Assembly (NCBI RefSeq): GCF_022867865.1
Contig: NZ_JALIEC010000001.1
Span: 602,501 to 666,500, forward strand
Source: Phaeobacter sp. J2-8
Lineage (GTDB): Bacteria; Pseudomonadota; Alphaproteobacteria; Rhodobacterales; Rhodobacteraceae
Length of the DNA: 64,000 bases
Reading direction: 5' to 3'
The position numbers and the translations under genes were made by a program. Positions 1 through 8,800 of this stretch are shown in pieces. The notes beneath the pieces are model-generated. The model searched no databases and was not told the origin of the DNA. It saw only the letters and a program-made list of their open reading frames with translations. Each line of letters opens with the position of its first letter. Within the stretch, counting starts at the first letter, position 1.

Positions 1-581
1 AATCTGTCTCTTTCTGGATCAAATCAAGCGCGAGAAGGGCGTTTGGTGGATGCCTTGGCAGTAAGAGGCGATGAAAGACGTGATACTCTGCGATAAGCCA
101 TGGGGAGCCGAGAATATGCTTTGATCCATGGATTTCTGAATGGGGGAACCCACCTGAATGTTCATTATAATAACTTCGGTTGTTTATAATGTTCATAACC
201 AGGTACTTAAAGACTGAATACATAGGTTTTTAAGAGCAAACCCGGGGAACTGAAACATCTAAGTACCCGGAGGAAAGGAAATCAATTGATACTCCGCTAG
301 TAGTGGCGAGCGAACGCGGATCAGCCAAGCCTTGAGAGTGAAAAGAACGACCTGGAAAGGTCGGCCATAGTGGGTGACAGCCCCGTATTTGAAGCTCGAT
401 GGGATGTATTAAGTAGGGCGGAACACGTGAAATTCTGTCTGAAGATCGGAGGACCACCTTCGAAGGCTAAGTACTCCTTACTGACCGATAGTGAACCAGT
501 ACCGTGAGGGAAAGGTGAAAAGCACCCCGACGAGGGGAGTGAAACAGTACCTGAAACCGAACGCCTACAATCAGTCGGAGC

Positions 582-1310
582 TTGACTGGACTCTAATGAT
601 AATCTGATGCATGCCGCTTCCTGGAAACAGGGAGTTGGATATGGCAGACGGAACTTTTGCCATTCTCATGTTGGTCGCAGGACTGACGGATATGGGAATA
701 AATCATTGTGGCACATCGCAGGGCTGTCTTGGCCGGAGCGACGTGACACCAAGGATCGCCTTCTCGGGCGGTCAGGTTCTTGAACGCCGCGCAGAAACGG
801 GAAGTGAAGTCTATCTTCGCTATGATCTTGGGCGCCGTACCGGCCCCTTTGGTCATGCGGTGGGGCTGAGTGTCGGGTCTCGGGGTGAAACCTGGGTCGG
901 CATTGGTCAGACCTACACGATGGACTTTGGTTCCAGCCCGTTTTTTGCGGAATTGCATGCGATGACCGGTGTGTATGACGCCGGTGACGGCCTTGATCTG
1001 GGCGGCGCTATTGCGTTCCGTTCGGGTGCCGAGGTCGGTTGGGAAAACAAACGCGGTTGGCGGTTTGGTCTCAGCTTCGATCATCGATCGAATGCGGGGA
1101 TTTATGACCACAATCCGGGTGTTGAGACCGTGCAACTGCGCGTGTCGGTACCAACCAGATAATATTCGCATCAAAAAATGCATCATGCGTGAGCCGCTCT
1201 CAGGATCTGCCCAAGTGGCGATCCGAAGGATCGGTGTACCGGCCAAAGGTCGGCGCAAAGCGGTTGTCGCCCGCGGCGGCAACTCCAGATTACTATTAGT
1301 GTCCAGTCTT
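582..1310 (+). other. 23S rRNA intervening sequence in helix 25
   Basis: The flanks match helix 25 of 23S rRNA: CAGTCGGAGC on the left and GTGACGGCGTACC on the right, where E. coli has only a short hairpin. The insertion ends are complementary: 582-606 pairs with 1286-1310 at about 20 of 25 positions, as expected for an RNase III-excised intervening sequence. Such elements are usually 100-200 nt; this one is 729 nt because it contains a protein-coding gene. Confidence 0.9.
641..1162 (+). CDS. PagL-like lipid A 3-O-deacylase inside 23S rRNA
   Basis: Predicted outer-membrane acyloxyacyl hydrolase of 173 residues. The C-terminal strand contains H-x-S followed by NPG and then Glu (H148, S150, E162). 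The His-to-Ser spacing of 2 and His-to-Glu spacing of 14 are the same as in the catalytic triad of Pseudomonas PagL. Alternating polar/aromatic strands before it fit a small beta barrel. The start at 641 is chosen over 611 because GGGAG lies 5-10 nt upstream. The N-terminus has a short hydrophobic stretch (TFAILMLVAGL) but no clear positively charged signal peptide, which is odd for an outer-membrane enzyme. The gene lies wholly within the intervening sequence, so its mRNA would be co-transcribed with rRNA and released when the insertion is cut out. The family call is fairly secure; expression is unknown. Confidence 0.75.
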   Translation: MADGTFAILMLVAGLTDMGINHCGTSQGCLGRSDVTPRIAFSGGQVLERRAETGSEVYLRYDLGRRTGPFGHAVGLSVGSRGETWVGIGQTYTMDFGSSPFFAELHAMTGVYDAGDGLDLGGAIAFRSGAEVGWENKRGWRFGLSFDHRSNAGIYDHNPGVETVQLRVSVPTR

Positions 1311-1809
1311 GTGACGGCGTACCTTTTGTATAATGGGTCATCGACTTGGTCTATCTAGCAAGCTTAAGCCGTTAGGTGTAGGCGCAGCGAAAGCAAGTCT
1401 TAATAGGGCGCATGAGTTAGATGGATCAGACCCGAAACCGAGTGATCTAGGCATGACCAGGATGAAGGTAAGGTAACACTTACTGGAGGTCCGAACCCAC
1501 ACCTGTTGAAAAAGGTCGGGATGAGTTGTGCCTAGGGGTGAAAGGCCAATCAAACTCGGAGATAGCTGGTTCTCTGCGAAATCTATTTAGGTAGAGCGTC
1601 ATCCGAATACCCGGGGGGTAGAGCACTGGATGGGTAATGGGGCCCCACAGGCTTACTGATCCTAACCAAACTCCGAATACCCGGGAGTACTAGATGGCAG
1701 ACACACTGCGGATGCTAACGTCCGTAGTGGAGAGGGAAACAACCCTGACCTACAGCTAAGGCCCCTAATTCATGGCTAAGTGGGAAAGCAGGTGGGACGA
1801 CCAAAACAA

Positions 1810-1840
<31 letters not shown>

Positions 1841-2573
1841 TAAAGATAGCGTAACAGCTCACTGGTCTAAATAAGTTGTCCTGCGGCGAAGATGTAACGG
1901 GGCTCAAGCCATGAGCCGAAGCTTAGGATGCCGTAAGGCATGGTAGCAGAGCGTAGTGTGACATAGTTCCACGCGTCCTTGATCCCTTTGGGGATATTGG
2001 ACGCAGGGAGCTTTCTGTGAAGCCGGCGCGTGAGCGATCCGGTGGAGAGATCACTAGCGAGAATGATGACATGAGTAGCGACAAAGAGTGTGAGAGACAC
2101 TCTCGCCGAAAGTCCAAGGGTTCCTGCTTAAAGCTAATCTGAGCAGGGTAAGCCGGCCCCTAAGGCGAGGCAGAAATGCGTAGCCGATGGGAACCACGTT
2201 AATATTCGTGGGCCAGGAGGATGTGACGGATCTCAGAGGTAGTTCATCCTTATTGGATTGAATGGGCTGCTGAGAGGTCCCTGGAAATAGCCCTCCATCA
2301 GACCGTACCCTAAACCGACACAGGTGGACTGGTAGAGAATACCAAGGCGCTTGAGAGAACGATGTTGAAGGAACTCGGCAAAATACCTCCGTAAGTTCGC
2401 GAGAAGGAGGCCCGGTTCCTAGGCAACTAGGGGCTGGGGGCACAAACCAGGGGGTGGCGACTGTTTACTAAAAACACAGGGCTCTGCGAAGTCGCAAGAC
2501 GACGTATAGGGTCTGACGCCTGCCCGGTGCCTGAAGGTTAAAAGGAGAGGTGAGAGCCTTGAATTGAAGCCCA

Positions 2574-2656
<83 letters not shown>

Positions 2657-2911
2657 CGACTTCCCCGCTGTCTCCAACATCGACTCAGCGAAATTGAATT
2701 GCCTGTCAAGATGCAGGCTTCCCGCGGTTAGACGGAAAGACCCCGTGCACCTTTACTACAGCTTCGCACTGGCATCAGGACTGCAATGTGCAGGATAGGT
2801 GGTGGGCTTTGAAGCAGGAACGCCAGTTTCTGTGGAGCCTCCCTTGAGATACCACCCTTTGCATTCTTGATGTCTAACCGCGGTCCATTATCTGGATCCG
2901 GGACCCTGCGT

Positions 2912-2961
<50 letters not shown>

Positions 2962-3084
2962 GCGATGGTTGGCTCAGACCGGTCGGAAATCGGTCGTTGA
3001 GTGCAATGGCAGAAGCCAGCCTGACTGCAAGTCTGACAAGACGAGCAGAGACGAAAGTCGGTCATAGTGATCCGGTGGTCCCGA

Positions 3085-3138
<54 letters not shown>

Positions 3139-3704
3139 ACTGCCCAAGAGTCCATATCGACGGCAGTGTTTGGCACCTCGATGTCGGCTCATCTCATCCT
3201 GGGGCTGGAGCAGGTCCCAAGGGTACGGCTGTTCGCCGTTTAAAGAGGTACGTGAGCTGGGTTTAGAACGTCGTGAGACAGTTCGGTCCCTATCTGCCGT
3301 GGGTGTAGGATACTTGAGAGGAGTTGCCCCTAGTACGAGAGGACCGGGGTGAACGATCCACTGGTGTACCAGTTGTTCCGCCAGGAGCAGTGCTGGGTAG
3401 CTATGATCGGACAGGATAACCGCTGAAGGCATCTAAGCGGGAAGCCCCCCTCAAAACAAGGTATCCCTGAGGACCGTGGTAGACCACCACGTCGATAGGC
3501 CAGAGATGTAAGCGCGGTAACGCGTTCAGTTGACTGGTACTAATGGTCCGATAGGCTTGATTTGATCCAGTAATAGATAGATTACTCGGAACATGATCAA
3601 AGCAAACATCACATAAAACACGATAAATGTACCTGACTTGGACACTCTCGACAGAGAGTGAAACACAATTGCGCTTCAGCCGCGCAAACTTACCGGGGCT
3701 TTCC

Positions 3705-3824
3705 CGGTCTGGTGATCATAGCACGAGCAAAACACCCGGTCCCATCCCGAACCCGGCCGTTAAGTGCCGTCGCGCCAATGGTACTGCGTCTCAAGACGTG
3801 GGAGAGTAGGTCATCGCCAGACCT
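3705..3824 (+). rRNA. rrf: 5S ribosomal RNA
   Basis: About 120 nt with the terminal stem GGTCTGG/CCAGACC and the conserved CCCATCCCGAAC loop. It follows 23S by about 135 nt. The spacer holds only a small hairpin (CACTCTC/GAGAGTG, 3644-3661). The end positions are estimated from the terminal helix. Confidence 0.95.
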
Positions 3825-3932
3825 GATAAGCCCCGATAAAATGTATCTCTCAAACGATATCACCGACAAAGGCCAATACCAGCCGATATGCAAAAGGCCA
3901 CACCAGCCTCAAGGCAATAGGCCAAAAAATGG

Positions 3933-4009
<77 letters not shown>

Positions 4010-4035
4010 AACACCAAGAATTCTCGCAAACTCAC

Positions 4036-4062
4036 AAGCCCGCCCAAAAGGCGGGCTTTGTT
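4036..4062 (+). terminator. Rho-independent terminator of the rRNA operon
   Basis: AAGCCCGCC and GGCGGGCTT form a 9-bp GC-rich stem with a small A-rich loop, followed by a short T run. It lies 27 nt after tRNA-fMet. Confidence 0.85.
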
Positions 4063-4180
4063 ACGTTCAGCACAGAAAACCGCGACAAAAACTCGCAACG
4101 CTGAGTTCCCAAGGTCCGCGTCGAGGTTCCGTAAGCCCCCTGCAAAACAAGCCCCCCCGAAAGAAATGCACCCAAAATCA

Positions 4181-4212
4181 AACGGCTACCGAAATTGTTC
4201 TCGGTAGCCGTT
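4181..4212. repeat. Perfect 11-bp inverted repeat
   Basis: AACGGCTACCG pairs with CGGTAGCCGTT across a 10-nt loop. There is no T tract on the + strand. It is the only structure between the rRNA terminator and the IS copy; the surrounding 200 nt shows no credible gene. Confidence 0.6.
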
Positions 4213-4296
4213 GCCGTTGTGCCCCGATTGGCCCGTGATTGGGTCAGTTCAGCATCCATTTTGTTGAGCTTGACCTGCCCCCTGCTGGTCCCTCAT

Positions 4297-5196
4297 TCAT
4301 AATGAGAGTCTGCAGGTTGAATCTGGGTATTCGGCTTCCGCGTCTGACGCAAGCGCGCCGGGCGCGGAGTCTTCAAATTGCTCAAGCGCACGGCGCGCTT
4401 GCAGCGGCGTTTGGTTGCCCAAGGACGAGTGTGGCCTGACCGTGTTATAGTCGTAACGCCATAGGGCCAGCTTGCGCCGCGCATCATCCAGGCTGTCGAA
4501 GATCTCCTCGTTCAGTAGCTCATCCCTGAGACTGCCGTTGAAGCTCTCGATGAACGCGTTCTGCTGCGGCTTGCCCGGATCGATGTAGTGCCACGGCACC
4601 TCGTTCTCGTCGGCCCATTTCAGGATGGCCCGACTGGTGAACTCAGTTCCATTATCGCTGACAATGCAGCCGGGCTTTCCGTAAAGCCGGATCAGAGCGC
4701 TGAGCTCCCGGGCGACCCTTGCGCCGGAGAGGCTGGTGTCCGCGATAAGGCACAGGCATTCCCGAGTGCAGTCATCGATCACTGCCAGCATCCGGAACTT
4801 CCGCGAGGCGCCGAAGCTGTCGGATACGAAGTCCAACGACCAACGAGCATTGGGATACGCCGCAACTGGCATCGGCACCCTGGTGCCACGCGCCCGTTTC
4901 CGGCCGCGCCGCCGCTTCACGGACAGCCCTTCTTCGCGATAGACCCTGTAGAGCTTCTTGTGGTTCATGGTCATGCCCTTGCGCTCCAGCAGCACGCCGA
5001 TCCGGCGGTAACCGAACCTGCGCCGCTTGGCAGCGATGTCCTGCATCTCCTTGCGGATCTCGGTACAGTCCGGTGGGCGTTCTCGCCGGACTGTTTTGGG
5101 ATCGACACCGACAAGCCTGCAGGCCCGGCGCTGCGAGATGTCATGATCCCGCATCGCCCGAAGCGCCGCGTCTCGCCGCTTGGTCAATGTCGTCAA
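4297..5196 (-). CDS. IS3-family transposase OrfB, copy A
   Basis: A 299-residue integrase-type transposase: an HTH_21-like N-terminal region, then an rve/DDE domain with Asp in SLDFVSD, Asp in VSDNGTEF and Glu in NAFIESFNG. The start is TTG, overlapping the orfA stop (GAATTGACG). In this family OrfAB is normally made by ribosomal frameshifting at the overlap. It shares the DELL and FEDS variants with copy B; its last residues differ slightly (TCRLSL). Confidence 0.92.
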
Positions 5197-5455
5197 TTCT
5201 TTCCCAGCAAGTCTTTCAGCACGACGTTGTCGAGCATGGTATCGGCCAGCAGGCGCTTGAGCTTGGCGTTCTCGTCTTCGAGCGCCTTCAGCCTGGCGGC
5301 CTCAGAAACTTCCATCCCGCCATACTTGGCCTTCAACTTGTAGAAAGTCGCCGTGCTCAGCCCGTGCCTGCGACACACCTCCGCTGTCGGCATCCCTGCT
5401 TCCTGTTCTTTGATCATACCGATGATCTGCGCCTCGGTGAAACGACTTTTCGCAT
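5193..5455 (-). pseudogene. IS3-family OrfA, copy A, frameshifted near its start
   Basis: The other copies encode an 87-residue OrfA with an N-terminal helix-turn-helix ([17 protein letters not shown]) and a leucine-zipper-like tail ([16 protein letters not shown]). Here the stretch after the ATG at 5455 reads GACTTTTCGC instead of GACTCTTTCGC (plus-strand order), a loss of one base that puts the first dozen codons out of frame. A restart at ATG 5417 would give a 74-residue protein lacking the first helix. Copy A may therefore depend on OrfA from another copy. Confidence 0.8.
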
Positions 5456-5609
5456 CTGTCTGCTCCTTCAGAGTTGGCGCAGACTCTACATTACGGTGAG
5501 GGATTTCGCGGGGGGCAGGTCAAGCTGCGCGATGATAGGCGAAGAATAGTGCCCGTAGTCGGTCTCCTTTACAGTGTATCTTGTGCCTGTAGGGACCTGA
5601 GGCACGGCT

Positions 5610-5765
5610 ATGACCACCTGCTTGTTGCCGGGGCCCGTCGCGGGTGTGTTCTTCTATATCGATCTGATCGTGGACATCTTCAGTCGCAAAATCGTCGGCT
5701 GGGAGGTGCATGACTGCGGACCTCGCGCCCAATCTGATCCGGGAGGCGATCGAACTTGACTCCAA
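5610..5765 (+). pseudogene. Older IS3-family transposase remnant
   Basis: One frame reads GPVAGVFFYIDLIVDIFSRK and then KIVGWEVHD; a shifted frame continues DLAPNLIREAIELDS. Both are characteristic of an IS3-type DDE transposase core that differs from the intact copies. Both ends are missing and there is at least one internal frameshift. The rest of the 5523-5890 gap holds no gene except the ribosome-binding site (AAGGGG) for the next ORF. Confidence 0.75.
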
Positions 5766-5890
5766 GGCGCGGTGCCCTTTTTCTACCGCCAGCGGATTCC
5801 CTAGTGGTCTTGCGATCGTCTCGTGAGACCCTATGGAAAATAAAGTATTAGAATGCTAATTGCTCCAGCGCGAACAAGGGGATAATTTCA

Positions 5891-8800
5891 ATGGTTGCGA
5901 CTTTAAATTATTATGGCATTTCGTATGATTTTTTTGGCGATGCTTTTAACGAGGCCGATGTCACCTCACAAAGCGCCACACAAGTTATCCTGACTGATCA
6001 GGACACCCAGTTTGTTACCACGATCAATGGATTTGGCTTCTCGAATGTTCAAAATGACAATGTATCCGGCACTGTAACCAGCCTTCAGATCCATGATGCC
6101 GCAAACAACCTGGTGTTTTCCCTCTCGGGGGTCAATTGGAGCATGGCTCAGTTTGTCGTCGCCTTTGATGAAATCGCAAGCGGGGCCGAAACCGTCACGC
6201 TAGAGGCGCTGCTCAGCCTGCAACCGGTGAATTACAACGCCGCGACTGCGGATATGGGCAATGATATCAGCTTCTCCGGCGTCACCCAAGCGGTCACCAT
6301 CCAAGGCAGCGCCTTTGCAGACAGGTTCCAGGGCGGGCTTGCCGATGACACCATCAACCCCGGAAACACGGCGGAATACAGTGGCAACCTGCTTTGGGCC
6401 AGCGGCGGCAGCGACAGCTATAACGTTGGGAATATGGGCCCCAACCGCTATCTGGACGTCAGCTATGAGCCGATCAATGGGCCGATCACCGCGAATGTGA
6501 ATGGCAATGCCGGCACGATGAATGTCGCCAAACCCGGCGGTGACATGGACAGCTTCCTGAACATCGGCAATGTGCTGGATTACGGGTTGGGGCTTTGGGG
6601 CACCGAAGCCAACGATACGTTCAACCTCAACTCTGGCTTTGGCGGCTGGATGCAAGTCAACGGCATGGCCGGGAATGACACGTTCAACCTGACGCTGGAT
6701 GGGGTTGTCCGGCTGAATTATACTGGCGGTTATGACGGAGGTCCGGAAAATGGGATCACCGCCAATCTTGCCTCCGGCGTGATCAGCGATGATGGCTTTG
6801 GCACCACCGACACCCTTAATATACTGGGAGGCACCGCTGGGCGGCTTGAGATTCAGGGCACCCGTTTCGACGACAACATCATCGGCTCCAGCTATCACAC
6901 CGAACGCTTTATCCTGGAGCGGGGCAATGACACGCTGGATGCCGGAGGTGGCTGGGACGTTGTGCGCTATAACCGCAATGGCGTCGAGGCGATCAACGCC
7001 GATATGGAAACTGGCATCATCACCGGCACATGGTGGGGCGAAGCCTTTACGCATGAGGTGTCCAACGTCGAAGAAATCCGTGGCTCGTATGACGGCAGCG
7101 ATTTCATCAGCGGTGACAGCAACGATAACGCGCTGGAAGGCTGGGGTGGGAATGACAGCCTGTTTGGCATGGGCGGCGAAGACGACCTTTATGGCGGCGA
7201 TGGGGACGATTACCTCGATCCCGGCGACAGCAATTATGGCTATGATTATGTCAATCCCGGCGCCGGGAACGATCAGGTCGAGCTTGGGGCCATGCAATAC
7301 GGGTTTGTCGGAATTTCTCACGTCGGGCTGCATGATCTGACCGGGCTGACGCTTGATCTTGATATGACAATAGCCAATGGCGTCGGCGGCGTTGATGCCA
7401 GCATCGACAAAGGCGCCTATGGCACGACCGCTCTGTTGAATGTTGATTCCGCTCTGCTGGCGGATGGCGCGCAAATTATCGGCAGTGACATGGCCGATAC
7501 GTTCAATGTGACCCTGAACGATCGTGCCTGGCTGGAACTGCGCGGCGGACGCGGCATTGACAGCTACGATCTCAACACTGCCGCCCCGGACGGCGAAAAC
7601 GCCACCATACGGCTGGAATTCCACCGCGACGCGGCTTTCAACCGCGCGACGCAAGGGCTGAATATCGACCTGCGCAGCGGCATGATCGCCAATGATGGGT
7701 TTGGCTTTCAGGAACAGATCAGCGGCAATTACGATTACCGTCTCGAAATTCGTGGCACCGACCATGCCGACACCATCATCGGCAGCCACCGCAATGAAAG
7801 CTTTATCGGTCGCGGCGGCAATGACATGATCGACGGCTTGGGTGGCTGGGACCGGCTGCGCTTTGACCGCTCTGATATAGACACCGGGGTACATGTCGAT
7901 CTGGGTGCGGGCACGGCCAGCGGTGTCTTTGATGGATATGCCTTCAACTACACCATCGCCAATATCGAAGAGGTGCGTGGCACCAACGCCTTCAACGACC
8001 AGATTTTCGGTTCGACCTCGGGTGAATATTTCGACGGTCGGGGTGGCAATGACAGGATCTTTGGCGATGGCGCGGCGGCGGGGTATTACACCGGCTTTCA
8101 TGCCAATTATATCTATCGCCTCTATCAGGCGACGCTGGACCGAGAGCCGGACGCAGGCGGGCACACCGCATGGACCCAACGCTATGCCAACGGCGAATAC
8201 AGCGCACTTGACGTCGCCGACGGTTTTGTTCGCTCACCCCAGTTCAAGGCAACCTATTCCGACAATCTGTCGAATACCGAATTCGTCACGCTGCTTTATA
8301 ACAACGTGCTGGACCGCGCCCCCGATGATCAGGGGCTGGCGCGCTGGGTTGACGAACTCGACAGCGGGGCCAGCCGCGCCGATGTGGTGCTGGGCTTTGT
8401 GCAAAGCCCGCAGTTCATCGCCGCCACCAACCCTGCGGCCAATGCCTTTGCCGCAAACGGTCTGGCCTCCAACTGGAGCGACGAGGTGTTCCGCCTCTAT
8501 CAGGCGACGCTGGACCGCGTACCGGACATGACGGGCCAGACCAATTGGACCGGACGGTTGGCTGATGGTTCATACAGTCTCGAAGAGGTGGCGGATTCTT
8601 TTGTCCGCTCACCCCAGTTCAAGGCAACCTATTCCGACAATCTGTCGAATACCGAATTCGTCACGCTGCTTTATAACAACGTGCTGGACCGCGCCCCCGA
8701 TGATCAGGGGCTGGCGCGCTGGGTGGGCGAACTCGACAATGGCGCCAGCCGTGCCGACGTGGTGCTTGGTTTTTCGCAAAGCCCGCAGTTCCAGACCAAT

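Follow-up and report, generated by a model that had tools for sequence, protein, structure and literature searches.

The window, by which we mean the whole 64,000-nucleotide stretch of Phaeobacter sp. J2-8 analysed here, opens with a 23S rRNA gene that contains an intact ORF (Table 1). The gene is followed by a 5S rRNA and then by a tRNA-Met, presumably the initiator tRNA usual at that place. A single match to the Rfam large-subunit model (RF02541, 2579 bits, window 22-3564, model positions 1-2925 of 2925) spans the insertion. The 23S flanks stop at position 581 and pick up at 1311, leaving an insert of 729 nt, and position 581 corresponds to nucleotide 540 of the Escherichia coli 23S rRNA, a site which belongs to helix 25. 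Helices 9, 25 and 45 are the common sites of the 23S intervening sequences (IVSs) that are excised by RNase III. The ends of the insert pair in the predicted fold of 562-1330 (z -9.75, 20 shuffles), forming a terminal stem of 22 pairs with one U-U mismatch. Two features expected of an IVS are present: extra sequence at a known site of an otherwise complete 23S gene and a long terminal stem suited to RNase III, whose cutting is itself an inference. Introns of group I or II were rejected, as Rfam at its gathering threshold gives only LSU, 5S and tRNA in 1-8000. Two other elements were noticed by eye. A short AT-rich hairpin with a UUCG loop lies near the 5' end of the 23S (window 160-205), at the position where a helix 9 intervening sequence is known in alphaproteobacteria, and a 299-aa ORF resembling an IS3-type transposase (window 4297-5196, minus strand) lies directly downstream of the operon's tRNA-Met.

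Table 1. Features of the interrupted 23S rRNA gene, in window positions
Feature	Position	Strand	Basis or remark
23S rRNA gene, host of the insertion	22..3564	+	Rfam RF02541
729-nt intervening sequence replacing the short helix-25 loop	582..1310	+	Flank comparison; plain hairpin in other family genomes
5' arm of the terminal stem	584..606	+	Stem alignment, pair count, fold; 21 of 22 pairs form in the window copy, by eye
Leader hairpin with GAAA loop, 3' side including the Shine-Dalgarno	614..638	+	Leader MFE -14.0 kcal/mol; mean Shine-Dalgarno accessibility 0.24
Shine-Dalgarno GGGAG, 6 nt 5' of the ATG	630..634	+	Sequence; similar stretches precede the start in other embedded copies
PagL-like ORF, 173 codons and TAA	641..1162	+	Pfam PF09411, AlphaFold2, Foldseek
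Codons H148-R149-S150, His-x-Ser of the triad	1082..1090	+	Invariant in 52-row alignment; align to 126-128 of 2erv_A
Codon E162, Glu of the triad	1124..1126	+	Invariant in 52-row alignment; aligns to 140 of 2erv_A
3' tail of the insert, stop codon to stem	1163..1285	+	Differs between operons (insert of 729 or 687 nt)
3' arm of the terminal stem	1286..1308	+	Stem alignment, pair count, fold

The ATG lies 59 nt inside the insert, and 58-107 nt inside it across the copies with a visible 5' side; the starts of other embedded copies were picked by a script partly on the basis of their Shine-Dalgarno-like stretches. Several lines of evidence place the product with the lipid A 3-O-deacylase PagL. First, the Pfam PagL family (PF09411) matches with 56.6 bits against a cut-off of 23 (4e-15), over residues 94-180 of a 183-aa form starting at 611 and positions 44-135 of the 136 of the profile. 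Second, the His-Ser-Glu triad does not vary in any of the 52 sequences that we aligned, made up of the window and 51 relatives, and the profile of these sequences, compared with solved structures, finds PagL of Pseudomonas aeruginosa (2ERV, E 2e-4), with H148, S150 and E162 mapping without gaps onto positions 126, 128 and 140 of chain 2erv_A, which we take to be the catalytic residues. Third, the AlphaFold2 model (mean pLDDT 94.4) consists of an N-terminal helix and an eight-stranded beta-barrel like that of 2ERV, and its top Foldseek match among PDB folds is PagL (2erv_B, E 2.6e-7, TM 0.61/0.71, 19% identity), which meets the structural expectation by prediction only. A preliminary description of this DNA had claimed a 729-nt helix-25 insertion with pairing ends, an intact 173-codon ORF and a PagL-type gene with an H-x-S...E triad. 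The insertion is borne out by Rfam, the flank comparison and the fold, the ORF by its uninterrupted frame and Shine-Dalgarno, and the gene by profile, triad and predicted fold. NCBIfam models matched nothing in the two proteins searched. The four-helix S23 protein was rejected as an identity, since Pfam shows PagL only and the model is a beta-barrel. An antisense ORF (593-1282) was rejected as a gene: it has no Pfam match, and an open codon-aligned frame on the antisense strand is not peculiar to embedded copies (17 of 25), as 25 of 55 coding sequences outside rRNA have one too, for which reason we take it as a by-product of codon usage.

The N-terminus (MADGTFAILMLVAGLTDM) has a hydrophobic stretch with no basic residue before or within it, and a helix is predicted at residues 5-21; all 52 rows of the alignment share cysteines 23 and 29. 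As this is not a classical signal peptide, export is not self-evident. More distant homologues (L051, L054, L113, L115) do start like classical signal peptides, as judged by eye and without a predictor. The protein thus shares with P. aeruginosa PagL the eight-stranded barrel (predicted here) and the triad, and differs from it by the low identity, the lack of a classical signal peptide, the two invariant cysteines and its being encoded in rRNA. It could be that a protein made from rRNA transcripts has the fold of PagL and acts on a substrate other than lipid A. The partial Pfam coverage, the 19% identity, the unusual N-terminus and the cysteines all leave room for this, but the triad is invariant and aligned with that of PagL, which is also the best structural match, and we hold another substrate to be unlikely without being negligible.

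Distribution and history of the gene

The PagL profile matches three places in the genome of the window, each within a 23S gene. These are all the 23S copies found in this assembly (95.47% complete), no further copy of the gene was found, and the three differ by one residue and by the length of the tail. A protein search of 394 family genomes gave a relative in 64 (E<=1e-15) and no match at that threshold in the other 330. According to BLAST against the 23S flanks, the gene is within the 23S in 19 of the 64 and elsewhere in 45, and at the same threshold none of the 64 has both an embedded and an outside copy. Together with G003, known from earlier searches, this makes 20 embedded genomes. In all of these whose two junctions can be seen, the insert is at the identical base (G028 and G391 lack a visible 5' side), and all 26 matches to the 23S flank in the 20 genomes directly follow an embedded copy, so that we found in them no plain 23S copy from which ribosomes could be made.

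The pattern of the 5' junction was found in 17 of the 394 genomes, all of which have the ORF; it misses two embedded genomes of this sample whose 5' side is absent (contig edge, run of N), and the relevant part of the 23S is assembled in 152 of the 394. The first 19 non-embedded genomes that we checked (15 with an outside copy, 4 without) all have a plain hairpin of 11-13 nt at the site, as do 18 of 20 further family genomes (10-13 nt), one 23S copy being checked per genome. In L262 the site is filled by a run of N of insert size. L266 also has a run of N there, but behind it the ORF's end can be made out by eye, together with the 3' arm of the stem, which probably makes this, as far as its sequence can be read, the 21st embedded genome. 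No readable insert without the gene was found among the family genomes examined.

A scan of GTDB genomes, in which 80 of 146 relatives were kept, placed 25 of the 80 loci within 23S genes (26 were flagged, and L238 is not embedded). The 25 loci come from the genomes of 23 records, with two each in Marinovum algicola and Thalassovita taeanensis, and their genera are Marinovum, Maliponia, Puniceibacterium, Rhodosalinus, Primorskyibacter, Roseivivax, Aquicoccus, Thalassococcus, Salipiger, Cognatishimia, Aliishimia, Poseidonocella, Roseovarius, Thalassovita, Pseudohalocynthiibacter and others. One record, L170 (JAFKDC010000054.1), is named Enemella evansiae, presumably an actinobacterium by its name; its 23S is near that of this Rhodobacteraceae family and has the insert, and the genome is perhaps mislabelled. 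A plasmid collection searched with the protein gave no match. Judged from the sequences, the recurrence in 20 genomes and in 25 of 80 named loci is more than chance.

Eleven of the 55 outside loci show a 23S, a 5S or the operon's tRNA-Met in the neighbouring DNA. Among the operon-adjacent copies, L167, L172, L177, L184, L188, L190, L218 and L238 follow the direction of the operon, and L178, L219 and L220 run against it. In L218, from Roseovarius albus, the gene is between the end of the 5S match and the tRNA-Met that is usually close behind the 5S. The operon is 12.8 kb from the outside copy in L204 and about 31 kb from it in L239, where the contigs were paired up by their length. Contig ends are close by unusually often: 25 of the 55 outside loci have one within 4 kb, compared with an expectation of 5.1, as would be the case if rRNA repeats broke the assemblies. 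Salipiger mucosus DSM 16094 has two outside copies (L205 and L211). We found no convincing remnants of the stem beside outside copies, with at most 16 of 25 bases per side.

Embedded and outside copies are interleaved in the protein tree, with 13 changes of location in a tree of 76 rows, at least 5 of them forced, and 14 changes in a tree of 79 rows, at least 4 of them forced. The insert is also scattered in the 23S tree (47 rows, 28 with the insert and 19 without, excluding the row of the window), which implies 12 changes, at least 8 of them forced. A spread by descent of the 23S alone was rejected, since a 23S tree with the insert in one clade fails the test (p-AU 8e-7). Because stem and site are the same throughout, we infer from these sequences that the insert arose once and was later exchanged and lost, and that some lineages without it have retained the gene elsewhere.

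Selection on the protein and, probably, on the RNA

The codon model gave an omega of 0.123 for 25 embedded sequences and of 0.091 for the outside copies, and the median pairwise dN/dS was 0.19 in the former (maximum 0.54, 202 of 300 pairs estimable) and 0.22 in the latter (229 of 300 pairs). The 25 embedded sequences include two from the genome of the window (the window itself and L119) and leave out L163 and L226. The codon model, the dN/dS and the dinucleotide shuffles described below used 25 of the 55 outside copies, and the synonymous shuffles used all 55. None of the 25 embedded sequences has an internal stop. The preliminary description had proposed to search the 23S genes of other Rhodobacteraceae for helix-25 insertions of 600-800 nt and to look for a dN/dS below 1 in the ORF; the first yields inserts of 598-745 nt with the same gene, and the second a clear answer, as the embedded ORF is, on the evidence of these alignments, under purifying selection. 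Three outside copies (G266:C64, G372:C19 and G288:C116) have one internal stop each.

The terminal stem was analysed in 25 distinct arm pairs, omitting L163 and L226, which are second copies of two genomes. Of the cells of this alignment of 22 pairs, 90% are paired and 15 have a two-sided change; neither value, nor the covariation score, was reached in any of 500 shuffles. The number of stem pairs with a two-sided change (6) and that of further pair types do not exceed the shuffles, being reached in 64 and 296 of 500, respectively. Twelve pairs are invariant, and the stop codon forms part of the 3' arm in several genomes. Within the limits of this alignment, the stem carries compensatory changes.

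An alternative is that the ORF is not translated and is the cargo, or a relic, of a selfish intervening sequence. This has been argued for the S23p of Coxiella, a helix 45 ORF whose translation is doubted, whose Shine-Dalgarno is lost upon excision by RNase III and which is decaying (PMC4990558). The partial sequestration of the embedded Shine-Dalgarno sites would fit such a fate. However, the low omega and the lack of a broken copy among 25 do not, and here the Shine-Dalgarno is well inside the insert, beyond the stem. Furthermore, no genome of the 64 keeps an outside copy besides the embedded one, and no readable stem without the ORF was found. We therefore regard an untranslated relic as improbable.

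The coding RNA of the embedded copies folds more stably than expected. Relative to synonymous shuffles, which fix the protein and the codon usage, the embedded copies have a median z of -3.31, with 22 of 25 below -2 and 20 of 25 more stable than all 40 shuffles, whereas outside copies have a median z of -0.15, with 2 of 55 below -2 and a single one of 55 beating all shuffles (Mann-Whitney p 1e-10). Dinucleotide shuffles give medians of -3.69 for 25 embedded and -0.61 for 25 outside copies (p 4e-7); these p-values ignore kinship. The antisense strand of embedded copies folds less stably (median z -1.23, 9 of 24 below -2). Three embedded copies lack a clear signal, L162 (z -0.4), L169 (-0.0) and L210 (-1.7). 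Two outside copies, L216 (-2.4) and L221 (-2.9), fold like embedded ones and may have left the rRNA only recently. When pairs on well-supported branches of the protein tree are compared, folding agrees with location in a mean of 3.7 of 4 of them and goes the opposite way in a mean of 0.0; with only 4 independent pairs this test is not significant (p 0.125). No conserved internal fold was found, the structure conservation index being 0.117 in 12 embedded and 0.139 in 12 outside sequences. The leaders differ as well: in embedded copies the Shine-Dalgarno is more often under a hairpin, with a median accessibility of 0.36 compared with 0.60 outside (p 5e-5), and the leader MFE is lower (-11.2 vs -6.5 kcal/mol, p 4e-4), in a comparison that used 28 of the 55 outside copies and in which the start codon looks misplaced in six rows (L234, L241, L239, L222, L224, L227). 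There is thus a strong signal, read from coding sequences alone, that the synonymous sites of embedded copies favour stable folding of the transcribed strand, which suggests a second layer of selection, acting on RNA folding beyond that on the protein.

Such a signal raises the question of whether the insert matters as RNA, i.e., as a structured expansion segment of the ribosome, possibly unexcised, in which the ORF would be incidental or secondary. The strand bias of the folding and the compensatory changes in the stem would be explained, but not the conservation of the same protein family outside rRNA without this folding signal, nor an embedded omega close to the outside one; the fold itself, moreover, is not conserved. 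A role chiefly as RNA seems to us quite improbable. An artefact of assembly or contamination can be dismissed, despite the 4.23% contamination listed for the genome of the window (G000), because the three copies are on one 1.16-Mb contig and the same arrangement is found in many separate assemblies, including the single-contig genome G183 and a record titled as a complete genome, NZ_CP049037.1 (L228).

A ribosomal RNA precursor as putative messenger

The explanation that we find best supported, and consider likely, is that the helix-25 IVS of the 23S precursor also serves as the messenger for a PagL-like beta-barrel enzyme of the outer membrane. The arrangement of the sequences is observed; transcription from the rrn promoter, excision by RNase III, translation and enzyme activity are inferred. 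The rrn promoter, which lies outside the window, should be the one that drives the ORF, because the ATG is near the start of the insert and a simple consensus scan found no sigma70-like promoter on the + strand of 1-3600; the leader would also be too short to leave much room for a promoter of its own. RNase III would then cut the terminal stem, as expected by analogy with other 23S insertions, leaving a fragmented 23S rRNA. Either the released, tightly folded RNA or the nascent precursor would be translated, with the Shine-Dalgarno hairpin keeping the rate low, and the resulting protein would act on outer-membrane lipid A in parallel with the making of ribosomes. The yield of protein may be small, given the reduced access to the Shine-Dalgarno in embedded copies and the brake that stable folding would put on translation. 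The tight folding may prevent the insert from interfering with ribosome assembly, delay its decay, or restrain the translation of what is a very abundant transcript. We are evenly divided on a more far-reaching proposal, in which the 23S precursor is a selected messenger: the coding sequence would have been retuned at synonymous sites to fold tightly inside rRNA and not elsewhere, the gene would tend to stay with the operon, in helix 25 or adjoining it, and rRNA transcription, and with it growth rate, would directly set the extent of lipid A remodelling.

This arrangement resembles the known 23S IVSs excised by RNase III in its position, its terminal stem and its expected excision. A review (PMC8708148) gives such sequences as 100-200 nt long and forming an extra stem, with Rhodobacter sphaeroides among the bacteria that have an insertion cut by RNase III; the PagL insert is about 600-745 nt long, has a conserved enzyme ORF and was never seen without it. 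The S23p (23S_rRNA_IVP) of Coxiella, Leptospira, Brucella and Xanthomonas is likewise a sense-strand ORF in a stem-closed IVS, but it is a four-helix protein whose role is unknown, whereas the PagL-like ORF has the fold of an outer-membrane enzyme and is under purifying selection. The rRNA insertions of CPR bacteria and those in the 23S of Deinococcus and Nostoc also bring protein genes into the 23S, namely homing endonucleases and transposases. These serve mobility (PMC11270868, PMC2672173), and the former paper mentions a few CPR ORFs with other, unnamed domains. For the PagL-like ORF, in contrast, no role in mobility is known, and there is no intron here according to Rfam. In fungal mitochondria, rps3 sits inside a group I intron of the large rRNA gene. 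It is, like the gene described here, a useful protein gene without a role in mobility within a large-subunit rRNA gene; that case differs by the group I intron, the mitochondrial location and the ribosomal protein that is encoded. Among the matches listed by our search of the open literature, without subscription papers and supplements, there was no PagL or other lipid enzyme in an rRNA gene. The gene was perhaps overlooked because coding sequences overlapping an rRNA are discarded by annotation pipelines.

The published ORFs that we found in bacterial 23S inserts are either mobility genes or the little-understood S23p, whereas the PagL-like ORF is a conserved enzyme gene. By comparing its embedded copies with their outside relatives, one can follow, as in a natural experiment, the adaptation of a coding sequence to a place within a structural RNA. 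Some marine bacteria have an intact gene resembling that of an outer-membrane lipid enzyme inside their large rRNA gene. If it is expressed, the rRNA and the messenger would be one transcript, which would couple the outer membrane directly to growth rate.
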